64,000 nt of DNA from Tenrec ecaudatus (taxonomy: Eukaryota > Chordata > Mammalia > Afrosoricida > Tenrecidae), in contig NC_134536.1 of the NCBI RefSeq assembly GCF_050624435.1, positions 5,150,758 to 5,214,757 of the forward strand. The letters are read 5' to 3'. Made by a program: the position numbers and the translations under genes. The notes under the pieces are model-generated. The model saw only the letters and a program-made list of their open reading frames with translations. It was not told where the DNA came from and made no database searches. Positions within the stretch are counted from its first letter, which is position 1, and the number at the start of each line of letters is the position of its first letter. Positions 49,891 to 58,105 of this stretch are shown here, one piece after another.

Positions 49891-50164
49891 TGGATCAGCT
49901 CTTTGCTTTGGTCTACCTAGCCCTGATGGAACAGTGGCAAAGAAGGACAGAGGTGCAGGAGAACCCAGGGCTAGGCTAACTCAGAGCGAGACAGTGCCCC
50001 ACATTCAAGTTCTCCTTCTTAAGGGGGGACAAGTCCCTGGATAAAAAGAAAATACACATGATATATACATAACCTAAGGAAAACCATGACGCTGGAAGAT
50101 GTAGACAGAGGTTCGGCAAATCCAATGCAATAGGTGGTTAAAAACAAATAGAAAAAAGATGGTA

Positions 50165-50366
50165 ACAACCAACTACTGTCTAGTCAAGACCCACTTCTGA
50201 TGACCCCAGAAGGCAGAGTAGAGACCGGCACAGCATGTTCGAGGCTGTAAATCTTTCTGTGAGCCGTAACCTAATCTTTCTCCGAAGGAGCCATGGGTGG
50301 CTTTGAATGGACAACCTTGGGGTTAGAGATGTAATGTTTAATTCAATGCACCACCAGGGCATCTTA
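50165..50366 (-). repeat. AfroSINE, reverse orientation
   Basis: GGCTGTAAATCTTTCTGTGA, GGGTGGCTTTGAATGGAC and AATGCACCACCAGGGC. Confidence 0.78.
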
Positions 50367-51747
50367 TAGCTCATAGAACCATAAAATCACTGTGGGGAAT
50401 GAGGAGGGGGGGCGAGGAGTAAGGATTTTACTGTCAGAAAAAATTACCAGCAGGCGAGACTTTTCATGCTTTCTTTGTAACAAGCAACAAATGGTTCTAT
50501 TATACCAGAATGTGAAGTAACGAGCTGCATTATATGAATAAATGATTTTCCTTATTGATAGTTTGAGTGGAAGATTATCATCTACAATATTTCAGTGTTT
50601 TCCAGGGTATTGTGTGATTTATTTTGGCTTTTCCATGAAACTGTATTCATTTTAAATTAAGAGACTGATTTAAAAAAAACAAAAATGTATTTCGGCCTTC
50701 CTTCTTTTAAAATTTGCTTTAATGTTTTCCAAAGCAACATTTTGAAAATATCAGCGTTTTATCTATGGGCTCGAACTCTTGTCAGTAGTAAACCCTGAGC
50801 GCTACTCAGTTTCTCTTCTAGATCTGCCAGTCCTAAGAAAAATACAGTAATTCAGAATTAGTTATTATTCACTGGGGACTGTGTTGAAGTTTGCTTGTTT
50901 AGAAAACCTCACTCACAAGTACAGTAAATAGTGTAAATACAACAGGGGATTTGTATGACATTTTCTAAGAACTCTTCCCAAACACTTTTTCTCGACCTGA
51001 GAGGATCTGTATATATAAACAGAATTGATACACAATTAAAATTTATATTTAATCTAATCTTTAAAGCTGGCCCGGTGGAATATCTCATTAATCAAATCAG
51101 AGTTATGCTGCACACTTCAAAGGAACAAATTGGACCTTTCAAATGTTGGATGATTTAAGCTTTTCACTAATTGAAATCACTTTTCCCAGAATTGGTGTGA
51201 AATATTATGGCCCCTTGGATACGTGTGGACTTAAAATGCTCTTCAAACAGAGACTCAGAGGCCAGCCTACCTTCTCCTCTCAAACTGTTGGCTCATTCCT
51301 TGACCAAACAAACAGCCACTGAATTCTTGGCACAGCGCAGGCATGCCATAACTGTTTGGTAAACAAATGAGCTCAGAGAGAACCTTCCGTCACAAAGGAT
51401 GGAGGGCCCTTCACTGGTGGGTCTGAGGCAGCAGCACTTCCCATCTAGACGGGGCTTGGGGAGACGGACCGATGGCACAGATAACCGCCCGTGGAAGGAC
51501 GAGGGGGCTGTTTGCTGCCGAGGGATGAAACATGCCGTGCTCAGCGACAGAAGACTCCTGCACATGGGCTCCATCAAGGGGCCGGCTCTCTGGCCAGGAT
51601 ATGGGCACATAGCCTAACATGCTACAGACATTTCTGTCAGCACACTCAGCCATCAGGCGAGGGCAGGAAGGAGGAATGTGCTGATCGATGGAAGCAGCCT
51701 CACCACATTCCACAGCTCTCCAGAGAGGTCCAAAGAGCAGTCCTTAG
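50367..51747. other. Mostly unique intronic block
   Basis: About 1.4 kb without recognised repeats. AT-rich portion at about 50440-51180 with homeodomain-type cores may be conserved noncoding DNA (inference). No gene. Confidence 0.45.
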
Positions 51748-52185
51748 CTTGAGCCCATGGCTGCAGCCACAGTGACAATCCATCTGGTTGGGGACCTTCC
51801 TTTTTTTCTCTGCCCCTTTATTCCGCCGAGCATGATGTCCTTCTCCAGGAACTGACTGCTCTCTCTCGACAACATGTCCACGTTATGTGAGCCGAAGTCC
51901 TGCCATCCTTGCCTCTACAGACACTCCGGCCTTATGTTTTCCGAGACGGACTGGCTTGTCCTTTTAGCAGTCTGTAGGATGTTCATTATTCTTCCCCAGC
52001 ACCATAATTCAAATGCATCGATTCTTCTCTGGTCTTCCTTGTGCGGTGTCCAACTTTCATGTACATACGAGGCGACTGAAAATGCCATGTCTCAGGTCAG
52101 GTTGCACCTTAGTCCTGAAAGGAAAGTCCTTGCTTTTCAACACTCTAAAGCGGCCTTGTGCAGCAGGCTTTACCCAGGCCCTTTA
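51748..52185 (-). repeat. RTE/BovB-like LINE fragment, 3' region
   Basis: CATGGCTGCAGCCACAGTG, GAGCATGATGTCCTTCTCCA, TTTTAGCAGTCTGTAGGATG, ATAATTCAAATGCATCGATT and TGCTTTTCAACACTCTAAAG in reverse order of the sense element. Confidence 0.9.
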
Positions 52186-52347
52186 AATTATGCACATATA
52201 TTTAATTTTTATAAAATATTTGGCTAATCAGTATTGTATTTTCATATAATTTGGGAACTCTAAATGCAATGGCTGATTCCATATTATTCCCCCTGCTCCT
52301 ACTGTTCTGGAAGACAAGACTAGAAGTGTTTCTTATTCACGGAGCTA

Positions 52348-52800
52348 GTTAGGCTTTGTGTCAACTTGGCACCCTCTCACTCGTGAAGTCTCCTTGGTGG
52401 TATGGCCTATTTGATATCCATAGGCGACATTGAGAAGACCCTCTCTCTCTTCCTCCTCTTGCTGACCTGATTGCTGAGTCTGGCGCCCTGGGACTTAGGC
52501 TGGCAGTCACCATATGGTCTGTTGACCATTTGGGGCTGTTGGCTGCCTTCTATGTTTCCTCCCTTGGATTCAACTCGCCTGTCTCCACTGTCTTCTTACC
52601 TCCTGCTTCCTTTGCCGGTTCCTTGGCCAACAGCTGCATGAGGCTGCAGGATCTTCAGCCAGCATCTGACCAATAGACTGGACTTGGGCTGGCCTTGCCT
52701 GCTCTGTGACTGTGTGTGTGGGTTGCTTTCTTGTTATCAATTTCTTTCCTAGACATGTATGAGTGTCTGGCCTTTATTTCTCTCGAAAATCCAGCCTAAC
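52348..52800 (+). mobile_element. Unclassified element with short terminal inverted repeats, copy 2
   Basis: Starts GTTAGGCT and ends AGCCTAAC, an 8-bp perfect inverted pair. The subterminal GTGTCAACTTGGC and TTTCTCTCGAAAATCC have reverse-complement counterparts at the ends of copy 1 (40084-40590). 453 bp, no supported open frame. I did not find a convincing target-site duplication. Confidence 0.6.
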
Positions 52801-53521
52801 ACACTCAGATTCTATGTCATGGACATTTTTAGCCATCATGACAGCATAGGTAGAAGAGAATCCCTGAGACATATAAAAGAGGTTTGTTTTATAATGTCTT
52901 TATAAAGTATTTTAATCACTGTGAATTTTAATGTCAATGACTATTAATCTTCAATTCAACACAAGTGATTCTAAAGGAATTGGTTTGTTATTATTTCTTA
53001 AATGAGGAAATAATTATAAAGTGATGATAGAATGATTTAGATGCTAAGTAATTGGAGACACACCAATATCATTTAAATTTGTGAATCAAATTATTATTTG
53101 CAGAAGTGAAATGCATAGCAGTCAAAATATTATGATGTCAATCCTTGATCCAGAACTGAGAAACATCCTGTTATGGTAAATGCTAAATATAACAATATAG
53201 GTGTTCTTTTTTTAAAATCACTAAACCAAAATCCTGATGGAATACTTCAGCCCCATTTCCATTATGTCCACTAGCTGGTTAGAGGGAATCAACTGCTGTG
53301 CCATGGGAAAGTGGCAGCATTTGCACCTCTGAAACAAAGTCAAGGAATGATGTGTATTTGGCCTAAAGTTAGAATGGAAACATTTAGGATTTGGATGGAT
53401 GAGGCCACTTGCTAACAATAACAGGAACAGCCAACACTTGCTGCCGTGGAGGCAATTCCAACAATGGGGAACTATCACTTAAACTATGCTCCTATTTATT
53501 AATTACTGACAGTTATGGATT
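52801..53521. other. Unique AT-rich intronic sequence
   Basis: AT-rich, no recognised repeat or gene. Confidence 0.4.
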
Positions 53522-53673
53522 AAGGAGCCCTGGCAGTGTCGTGGTTGCCTGTTGGGTTGTGATCTGCCTGATTCGAAACCAACAGCGACTCCATGGGACA
53601 CAACCTGGGCTTTCTCCTCTGAGTCACGAGGAGCCAGCATTGACTTGATGGCAGTGAGTTGGCATTTACTGGA
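53522..53673 (+). repeat. AfroSINE with internal deletion
   Basis: AGGAGCCCTGGCAGTGTCG, CTGTTGGGTTGTGATCTGC and CATTGACTTGATGGCAGTG. About 50 bp of the middle are missing. Confidence 0.85.
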
Positions 53674-54128
53674 GTTTTTCGTTATTCCCACTCATCAACT
53701 GATGCAATGCTTACACGTAAGGGTTAAACATCAGCCACATAAGGCAGGAATGCCCATCTTCACCCTCATTTCATTCTGTGTGTGGAGAGGTGCTTTATTC
53801 ATATTGCTTTAGACCATGGGCAAAACAACTCTGGGCTCAGAGTGGGCTCCTTCCCCTTGACATGGACAGGGCCCCAGACGCCCAGAGGATGGCAGAGAAC
53901 CTAGGGTCACCTGGACAGCCTGCCTTGGGCTCTGCTTCTGGATACTCTGAAGAGCCCTTGGAGCAGCCCCACCTGCGGAAGCTTCTTGAAAGTTTTTCAG
54001 GAGCCCAGTGTTCCAATCGTTCATCAGAACATTACCTCCAACAGACTTGCTGTCGTAGTATTTCCTCATTCACTCACGCATGCATCCACTCATTTGCTTA
54101 TTTATTGAGAGCCTGCTATCTACTAGGT

Positions 54129-54307
54129 CAGTGGTTCTCAACCTTCCTAATGTTGCGACCTTTTAATACAGTTCCTCATGATGTGGTGACCCCCCCAACC
54201 ATAAAATTATTGTCATTGCTACTTGATAACTACAATTTTGCTACAGTTATGAATCAGGTGACCCATATGAAAGGGTCGTTCGACCCCCAAAGGGGTGGTG
54301 ACCCCTG
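54129..54307 (+). mobile_element. SPIN-like non-autonomous hAT element (179 bp) with 8-bp duplication
   Basis: Begins CAGTGGTTCTCAACCTTCC, the characteristic 5' end of SPIN/Charlie-type hAT elements, with internal AACCATAAAATTATTGTCAT and TTCGACCCCCAAAGGGG. It ends GGTGGTGACCCCTG. A perfect 8-bp duplication TACTAGGT flanks it (54121-54128 and 54308-54315), the length expected for hAT. Most of the element, including any transposase, is absent. The 3' inverted end is imperfect compared with the 5' end. Confidence 0.88.
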
Positions 54308-54315
54308 TACTAGGT

Positions 54316-54480
54316 GGTGCTGTGGGTTACAAATTGGGCTGCTAGCCACATGTAAGGTCATCAGTTCAAACCCACCGGCTGCTCCACAGGAGAAAGGTGA
54401 GGCTGTCTGCTCTGGTCAAGGTTCATTCACAGCGGTTCCTACAGGTATCCTCTGGCCCCAGTCCTGGAACTGCGTGTTCT
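54316..54480 (+). repeat. AfroSINE, 3'-truncated
   Basis: GCTGTGGGTTACAAATTGGG, CATCAGTTCAAACCCACCGG and GAAAGGTGAGGCTGTCTGC; immediately follows the hAT target duplication. Confidence 0.85.
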
Positions 54481-54724
54481 GAGAGGCACTGGATTCTTTC
54501 ATTAGAACTCTAGAGACCTGGTAAGAAGCTATGCTCTCCGATGAGCTAAGTCCAAGAGCTGAGTTCAGGGTGGCATGAGTTTAAACATACTGCCTGACAC
54601 CCTGAGAACAATAGGAGGCAAGTTGTTTCAATCCCTTGCACACCAACCTGCTCAGCTCTCAATTGTTGCTCAGAATGCTTCAGCGGGAGCTGGGGACAAG
54701 CACAAATTCAGACGGCTCCTTAAA

Positions 54725-55420
54725 GGGATCTGGTAGCAGACATCAAAGACTCAGAACAAAAATCACATCAATGTGAATGAGGGGGAGCATAGAGTGGAGA
54801 CCCAAAGCCTATCTGTACACAATTGGACATCCCCTTACAGAAAGATCACAAGGAAGAGATGAGCCAGTCAGGGTGCAGTATAGCACTGAGGACACATACA
54901 GCTTTCCTCTAGTTCTCTAATGCTTCCTCCCCTCCATGATCAGGACCCCAATTCTACCTTACAAATCCAGAGCATGTACACAGGTACAGATAAGAGTCTG
55001 AAACACAGGGAATCCAGGATACATAAACCCCTCAGGACCAATGAGAGTGGGGATACCAGGAGGGTAAAGGGAAGATGGGGGGAGAAAGGGGGAACTGATC
55101 ATAATGATTGACATATAACACCTCCCCAGGGGGATGAACAACAGGAAAGTGGGCAAAGGGAGACAGCAGACATTGTAAAATAAGAAAATAGTAATCATTT
55201 ATAATTTATCAAGGATTCACGAGGGAGGGAGAGTAGGGATGGGAGGGGAAAATGAGGAGCTGACACCAAGGGGCAAGGAGAAAGAAAATATTTAGAAAAT
55301 TATGATGGCACCATATGTAAAAAAAGAAAATGCTTGACATAATGGATGGATGTAGGGATAGTGATAAGAGCTGTAAAAGCCCCCAATAAAATGATTTTAA
55401 GAAATGATTTAAAAAAAAGA
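54725..55420 (+). mobile_element. L1-like 3' retroposed unit, copy E, 5'-truncated
   Basis: ATCACATCAATGTGAATGAG, CCAAAGCCTATCTGTACAC, GGGGGATGAACAACAGGAAA and ending CCCCCAATAAAATGATTTTA plus an A-rich tail. About 700 bp remain. Confidence 0.88.
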
Positions 55421-56206
55421 GTAGGAAAACGCTATTTCAAAAGAACGCAAGAAAATCTGTGCAGCTGCAAGTCACAGTCCAGCCTTCTCTCCCCGACTTT
55501 TCAAACTATCCCCCTAACCCCCCGCCGCCCCGCAAATACCATCAGCATTCTTACTTATCCCTGCTAGCCGGCCTCTTATCTGCAAATATGTAAATCCATT
55601 TAAATTAATTTCCTGTAATACCACACAAAACAATAATCATATTAGTACCATTCATAATATACTAATAACATTAACATAATTGCATTCAAATAGGAAATGG
55701 CTGGGTAATAGCTTTTTCATAAAGTGTTCCAACTCAAGTGTCATTTCACCCTGACTTTTGGTCTTTGGCTCCAGACAGCGCTGGGGGGGAAGGGTTCCCC
55801 AACCTTCCCACGGCCTTTGCGGGCGTGGGAGACGCTATCCACGAGCTTTGGAGAGGCACCGGCCAGCCGAGGGCCTGCAAAAGGAACATATTTCCGAGTA
55901 TAATGGGGCTTTCACCATTGTAGCCCCAGGCGGGGGACGCGTCTGCACGCATGGTGCACAGGCGGTGGGAGAGGTGGCCTCAGTGGCACAGTGGGTGTCA
56001 CTGTCTTTATTCTCACGTATCCAGGGCACAGGGTTGCCCTGGAGAATCGATGCTTTATTTCTTGGGTGGCAAGGCCAGCTGTCCTGTTAGGATCCAGTGG
56101 GCTCCCAGATTGTCGCCCTCTTAGGAAGGCTCAACCCGAAGGCCAAGTCTGCTCGTTTGTAACACATCATTACACATGAACGAGGGCTTGAAAACCGGGG
56201 TAGCGA
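55421..56206. other. Mostly unique intronic block
   Basis: 55570-55720 is AT-rich, homeodomain-motif-rich unique sequence; the rest is GC-rich unique DNA. No gene supported. Confidence 0.45.
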
Positions 56207-56950
56207 AATGGTGGAGGTGGAGGTGGAAGAGGTACAGGTGGTGGTGGTGGAGATGGTGGTGGTGGAGGTGGAGGTAGTGGTGGTAGAGGTGAAGGTGGTA
56301 GAGATGGTGGTGGTGGTGGTGGTGGTAGAGGTGATGGTAAAAGAGGTGGTGGTGGTGGAGGTGGTGGTGGTGGAGGTGGTGGAGGTGATGGTAGAGGTGG
56401 TGGTGGTACAGGTGGTGGTGGTGGAGGTGAAGGTAGAGGTGGTGGTGGTACAGGTGGTGGTGGTGGAGGTGATGGTGGTAGAGGTGGTGGAGGTGGTGGT
56501 GGTGGAGGTGGAGGTGATGGTGGTAGAGGTGATGGTGGTAGAGGTTGTGGTGGTAGAGGTGATGGTGGTAGAGGTTGTGGTGGTAGAGGTGATGGTGGTA
56601 CAGGTGGTGGTTGTGGAGGTGGTGAATGGGGGTGGTAGTGGTGGTGAAGGTGATAGAGATAGAGGTGGTGGTGGAGGTGGTGGTAGAGGTGGTGGTGGTG
56701 GTGGTAGAGGTGGTGGTGGAGGTGAAGGTGGTAGAAACAGAGGTGGTCATGGAGGTGGTGGTGGTGGTGGTGGTAGAGGTGATGGTGCTAGAGGTTGTGG
56801 TGGTACAGGTGATGGCGGTGGAGGTGGTGGGACAGGTGGTGGCCGTGTTGAATGGAGGTGGTAGTAGTGGTGGAGGTGGTGGTGGTGGACTTGGTGGAGG
56901 TGGTGGTGATGGTGGTGGTGGTGGAGGTAGAGATGATGGTGGTGGTGAAT
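56207..56950. repeat. GGT/GGA-rich minisatellite (about 740 bp)
   Basis: Plus strand is an almost uninterrupted mix of GGT, GGA, GAT and AGA trinucleotides, with higher-order units such as GGTGATGGTGGTAGA. It yields long Val/Glu, Gly/Arg and His/Tyr frames on both strands, which are not genes. Strong G-quadruplex potential on the plus strand. Confidence 0.95.
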
Positions 56951-56977
56951 CAGAGAGGTCTCCTCTTTGCTTAGAGG

Positions 56978-57177
56978 TTCAAACCAAACCAATCTCACTG
57001 CCACCGATAGCGACCCTGTAAGGCAGAGTGGAACTGCCCCTGTGGGTTTCTGAGGCAGTAACTCCTGAAGGGAGTACAAAGCCTTGTCGTCCTCCTGTGG
57101 AGTGGCTGGTGGGTATGAACTGCTGACACCGTCGTTTGCAGCCTAATGTGTAACCACTGAGCCACCAGGCCCCTTGG
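56978..57177 (-). repeat. AfroSINE, reverse orientation
   Basis: Tail AAACCAAACC, then CACTGCCACCGATAGCGACC, GGTTTCTGAGGCAGTAACTC and GAGCCACCAGGCCCC. The neighbouring GGT tract begins at its tail. Confidence 0.9.
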
Positions 57178-57964
57178 ATAATTATAATGTCACCTTGCAT
57201 TTACACCCAGGCTTTTTCCTCCGATGCTCAAGTCCTCATGTATACATGCAGGCCAGTTCTCCCCAATAGGACGCAGTGACACGGGCACAGGAGACAATCT
57301 GCCCCATAAACAAGCTAACCGCATGTTCAATATTTTCAGCACCTTCGCTTGCACACAGTAGCATTGCAGGGAAGAGTTCGTCCGTCACCGCCCTCTCTGA
57401 AGTTGAATGATAACAGGTTGCTAGGGAATTATCAGGGGAGACAAGCACAATAGGAATGAAAGACATCTATTGTGGTATTTTCTGCTTTGCCCTTCTACCT
57501 TCCCATGCCTTAGAATCCACTCTATCTTAAGATACATGGGCGCGCATTTATGGAAACACGTTTTCCACACTTTGGAAACATTAACCACCTGCAATATGGC
57601 ACGAAGAAGCTCCTGGGCAACTCAACAAGTGCAGGGGGCATACGGTGAAGGGCCTGGGCGAGTTTGGGCAACAGCGAACAGCCAGAGAGGGACTGAGGCA
57701 GGGGTGATTCCCTGGGAAGCTGAGAGCCTCTCTGCTCTCCCTGCCTGCCTGCCCAGGGCCTCGCTCTTCCTGGTTCCCTCCTCCTTCTTCTCCACCCACT
57801 GCCCATCTTCTCTCTCTTCCTGTCTGCCTTCTTGTCCTTGGTTCTTCGAGAGCTTACTGCATCTGTGCGCTGGGAGAGTGAGCGAGAGAGCAGTTTCTTT
57901 ACTGAGATGCCAACAGGCACAGCACAAGCACGAGCCGCTGCTGCTGCCGCTACAGGAAACCCTG
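57178..57964. other. Intronic sequence, no gene recognised
   Basis: Unique sequence. The 187-codon plus and 169-codon minus frames here overlap each other and have low-complexity composition; not supported. Confidence 0.45.
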
Positions 57965-58105
57965 CATGCTCCTGCGCCACCCTCACAAGGGTTGGCATGT
58001 TTGCGCCCATCGAGGCACCAACGCATCTCATAGAGGACCTTCCTTTAGTTGGTGCCCCACGTGGGATGCGGGATGTCCTTCTCCGGGGACTGGCCTAGTG
58101 AGGTA
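57965..58105 (-). repeat. RTE/BovB-like LINE fragment, 3' region
   Basis: CACCCTCACAAGGGTTGGCA, CATCTCATAGAGGACCTTCC and GATGTCCTTCTCCGGGGACT. Confidence 0.8.

Follow-up and report, generated by a model that had tools for sequence, protein, structure and literature searches.

A SPIN-type miniature element with a shortened terminus beside a perfect target-site duplication

SPIN elements and the copy in the window

SPIN is placed in the Buster group of hAT transposons in the cited passages of PMC3499496, where target-site duplications of the form nnnTAnnn are given for TcBuster. It has been reported from tenrec, and its transfers into galago, murine rodents, opossum, tenrec and vespertilionid bats are dated at 15-46 million years (passages in PMC5857283). 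The hosts named in the cited parts of PMC5857283 and PMC11614815 also include the bug Rhodnius. The name SPIN_NA_1_Et occurs in the cited part of PMC3183009, in the row for bat. Another horizontally transferred transposon, OC1 (OposCharlie1), is given with 6837 copies in tenrec (passage in PMC3621081).

The window, i.e., the whole stretch of 64,000 nucleotides analyzed here, carries a short element (Table 1) that resembles the tenrec non-autonomous SPIN elements in sequence (by a provisional consensus), in its termini, in an 8 bp duplication with a central TA and in high copy number, but lacks 15 bp at one end. The suffix Et in SPIN_NA_1_Et presumably stands for Echinops. The SPIN elements of galago, murine rodents, opossum, vespertilionid bats and Rhodnius are alike at the family level, as judged from excerpts of published descriptions only. 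The host list of OC1 overlaps that of SPIN; the SPIN match covers nearly the whole window element. SPIN in tenrecs is already known, and within this very abundant family the window element is an ordinary copy that has decayed. Alone it has little significance, being one more SPIN copy among thousands in the genome. A second SPIN copy scoring above chance was not found in the window.

Table 1. Positions of the element, its flanks and its neighbor in the window
Feature	Position	Strand	Remarks
Left target-site duplication	54121..54128	+	TACTAGGT; fits nnnTAnnn and the column-wise consensus of the relatives, CTCTAGAG
Non-autonomous SPIN-type hAT element, 179 bp	54129..54307	-	192/193 bp family form with a 15 bp terminal deletion
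Site of the 15 bp deletion	54300..54307	+	GACCCCTG, against GACCCACAGGTTGAGAACCRCTG in intact copies
Right target-site duplication	54308..54315	+	TACTAGGT
AfroSINE-like SINE copy	54313..54420	+	Neighbor, no part of the element

The SPIN reference used for family assignment is a provisional consensus. The window copy aligns almost end to end with this non-autonomous consensus and agrees with it at 162 of 177 ungapped columns; the match is to the reverse complement, the minus strand of the element having the orientation of the consensus. The local alignment score is 244.5, and 200 shuffles gave at most 26.5. Copies from the host genome itself were used to reduce reliance on this reference. The majority consensus of 33 such copies is 193 bp long. 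Over 192 columns it shows 97.4% identity to the provisional SPIN reference, relative to which it has a 33 bp internal deletion, so that the family is SPIN and the deletion is the family form in this genome. The SPIN-like hAT identity put forward in the sequence-only reading is supported. An old pan-mammalian element of the Charlie/MER5/MER20 kind would have the terminal motif CAGTGGTTCTCAACC in common with the window copy, but with provisional consensus sequences of MER5A and MER20 the match is confined to 13-17 terminal bases, with scores of at most 34 against 244.5 for SPIN, and the near identity of the own-genome consensus to SPIN also speaks against such an origin, which is extremely improbable. 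MER5A and MER20 were the two Charlie-type families compared; both were rejected on internal similarity, since their ends alone match. The sequence was also sought outside animals: exact 19- and 22-base patterns of the element gave no match in the collections viral_contigs and genome_contigs, a search that diverged copies would escape, and blastn found no match to the element in phages and plasmids. A text search of the literature with SPIN terminal strings gave no title on SPIN among the matches listed.

Relatives were sought in the host genome, 3.92 Gb in 2140 contigs. From 4361 first-look candidates found with the window copy, 40 went on to scoring: the window copy and 39 others at 87-91% identity. 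A pattern for the intact 3′ end (21 positions, two of them free) has 10,753 exact matches genome-wide and none in the reversed control, so that the genome holds thousands of relatives of the element. A family sample was formed from 40 loci with the exact intact pattern on one contig (C1), in listing order; four without a recognizable head were dropped, leaving 36, and a further three of unusual length were dropped, leaving 33 for the consensus. The commonest copy length is 192 bp (7 of the 36 sampled copies). Flanking duplications agree at six or more of eight positions in 22 of the 36, from which the consensus in Table 1 was derived, and the upstream 8-mer has a central TA in 25. Divergence from the consensus is 10.7% for the window copy. 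Copies in the sample span 5.7-14.1%, with a median of 9.5%, and by this measure the window copy therefore looks like an ordinary member.

The element had been described from the sequence as a 179 bp unit with a perfect 8 bp duplication and a 3′ terminus that does not mirror the 5′ end, and both points are confirmed. Identical copies of TACTAGGT abut the two ends exactly, with TA at positions 4-5 as in nnnTAnnn. The left terminus shows no mismatch to the hAT end CAGTGGTTCTCAACC; the right end reads CAGGGGTCACCACCCC inwards and therefore is no mirror of the left. With both strands counted, the window has just two exact TACTAGGT sites, the element's own flanks. This count by itself is ordinary (expected mean 1.12; two or more in 35 of 100 shuffles), and the evidence of the pair comes from its position, as exact 8 bp agreement at two fixed positions has p ~1.5e-5.

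The 15 bp deletion at one end

Intact copies and the window copy both run directly into the duplication, the window copy 15 bp sooner. It has lost 13 of the 16 bases of the terminal inverted repeat and 2 further in, and the outermost CTG is kept beside the duplication. Imperfect repeats, ACCC and ACCG, bracket the loss. The family consensus has matching terminal inverted repeats of ~16 bp; the window copy does not, only the outer 3 bases being kept at one end. Of the 39 other copies scored, 29 best-matching ones were fetched, and each retains the deleted segment in recognizable form; the set is biased in that the 30 loci taken from the own-genome search are best matches to the window query. 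The short terminal repeat is read as decay of a family member because all 29 near copies examined have the full end, and the window element is classed as a SPIN copy on grounds of descent and not as an intact member of the group. The odd end looks like a later deletion of 15 bases rather than a new mobile form.

The preferred reading, which is very probably correct, begins with a SPIN-family miniature element of the 192/193 bp type. This would have inserted at TACTAGGT in the last PACRG intron, with SPIN transposase presumably supplied in trans, and insertion would have duplicated the target site. The inserted copy has since decayed, and slippage between ACCC and ACCG would have removed the 15 bp from one end, probably after insertion in the window copy. 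The deletion might instead stem from a transposition that went wrong, either in the donor or upon integration; this is unlikely, for the ACCC/ACCG repeats yield the same product by ordinary slippage, but it would fit with terminal CTG and duplication being kept together in several short-end copies, and the window copy itself is compatible with either timing.

It had been suggested that the short 3′ variant itself transposes. This finds no support, the deletion being absent from the 29 near copies and scattered among other copies. A truncated end flanked by a perfect duplication is not in itself a sign that the truncated form moved. The search of the genome for other copies with this 3′ end, proposed with the sequence-only reading, found the same 15 bp loss in at least six further copies; none of the 29 near copies has it.

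Other short-end copies and their origin

A pattern for the short end, allowing up to two mismatches, matched 1254 places, 629 on the forward and 625 on the reverse strand, against 0 and 5 for the reversed controls; the loci described below come from 100 listed matches. Thirty of the matches were taken as loci L031-L060; 20 of these, without CTG after GACC or otherwise unfit, were only glanced at. Twelve more loci were picked by their ending, a few whose ending was altered being left aside, and 22 loci, the window copy among them, were inspected closely. Among the matches listed, the same 15 bp loss is present in at least six further copies: L034, L056, L064, L065, L068 and L069. Duplications agree at 8/8 positions in L056, at 7/8 in L034, L064 and L069 and at 6/8 in L065; in L068 a duplication appears only in a register shifted by one base. 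In L072 this end carries another deletion (duplication 7/8), and L031, L035, L036, L061 and L071 are unclear or have no duplication. In the remaining 9 of the 22 the terminal repeat is largely present but slightly altered or decayed.

The seven short-end copies, the window copy included, end in GACCCCTG (window, L056 and L068) or in GACCACTG or GACCGCTG (the other four). Slippage between ACCC and ACCR would account for both kinds of ending, depending on which side of the last base the join falls; the placements were enumerated on the consensus sequence.

The six or more other loci with the same short end beside a duplication count against the preferred reading, and could suggest a mobile short form, i.e., a transposing SPIN subfamily defined by the short 3′ end, in which the window element moved as it is, with only CTG at that end. 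Duplications do abut CTG in the seven copies (with the one-base shift in L068). Such a subfamily is nevertheless very unlikely. A tree of 69 rows requires seven changes for the seven short-end rows (shuffled mean 6.8), and the copies do not cluster: none of 200 bootstrap trees separates them from the rest by a single branch. Only 4 of the 66 inner branches of this tree are well supported, and the terminal region was trimmed only where a AAAGGGGT-type motif was found, so some near-group rows kept it. The window copy is closer to the best-matching full-end copies (88-91% identity) than to five other short-end copies (84-89%); pairwise identity among six short-end copies is 84-90%. Backbones also differ. 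That of L056 is 315 bp even with the short end and includes internal sequence absent from the 192 bp form. The absence of the short end from the 29 near copies argues in the same direction, as does the loss of 13 of the 16 terminal repeat bases. Terminal repeat bases are normally required for hAT transposition.

In a smaller tree, one-clade tests were made that took in 20 of the 33 intact copies. Forcing all seven short-end copies into one clade cost 20 log-likelihood units, with p-AU 0.054, so that a common origin is not firmly excluded, a point in favor of the subfamily; one clade of the three GACCCCTG copies cost 10.8 units (p-AU 0.149). A single origin of the short ends is disfavored on these comparisons, but is not rejected at the 5% level. 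The best reading of the 15 bp loss is a recurrent slippage deletion, probably after insertion. In a repeat family of this size the recurrent loss amounts to a natural experiment, on a small scale, in deletion by slippage. It is highly improbable that a SPIN miniature element with one terminal inverted repeat cut to CTG could still be mobilized and that the short-end copies are its transposition products; if this were true, most of that terminal repeat would be dispensable.

Two loci have features of their own. L064 (G000:C65:33750250-33750750) is a 179 bp short-end SPIN copy flanked by GACTAGGT and TACTAGGT, nearly the same site letters as in the window. Because the flanks differ and identity to the window copy is only 84%, this likeness is apparently a coincidence. 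L036, at ~1501-1560, has a SPIN-like end followed by what seems to be another terminus, and the flank atttrgtgagtaaa is repeated there; this may be a duplication at an insertion junction.

PACRG and the neighboring SINE

The last coding exon of PACRG lies in the window at 9568-9410 on the minus strand, where 53 residues are 96% identical to human PACRG, and the element therefore lies upstream of it. This supports the location in a PACRG intron proposed from the sequence; the intron is the last one unless another exon was missed. There is no Rfam match at the gathering threshold within 50000-58000.

Against a provisional AfroSINE consensus, the SINE beside the element shows 79.6% identity in 108 columns. 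Its start shares GGT with the right SPIN duplication, as the last 3 bases of the latter, and SPIN therefore may have inserted at the edge of the SINE. A duplication of the SINE's own was sought as a guide to the order of insertion. The score for SINE first was reached by 89% of 200 shuffles and that for SPIN first by 7.5%, neither flank being convincing. AfroSINE-like matching pieces at E < 1e-3 against the provisional AfroSINE consensus number 36 in the window. These many pieces, together with abundant SPIN, are compatible with the tenrec host deduced in the sequence-only reading.
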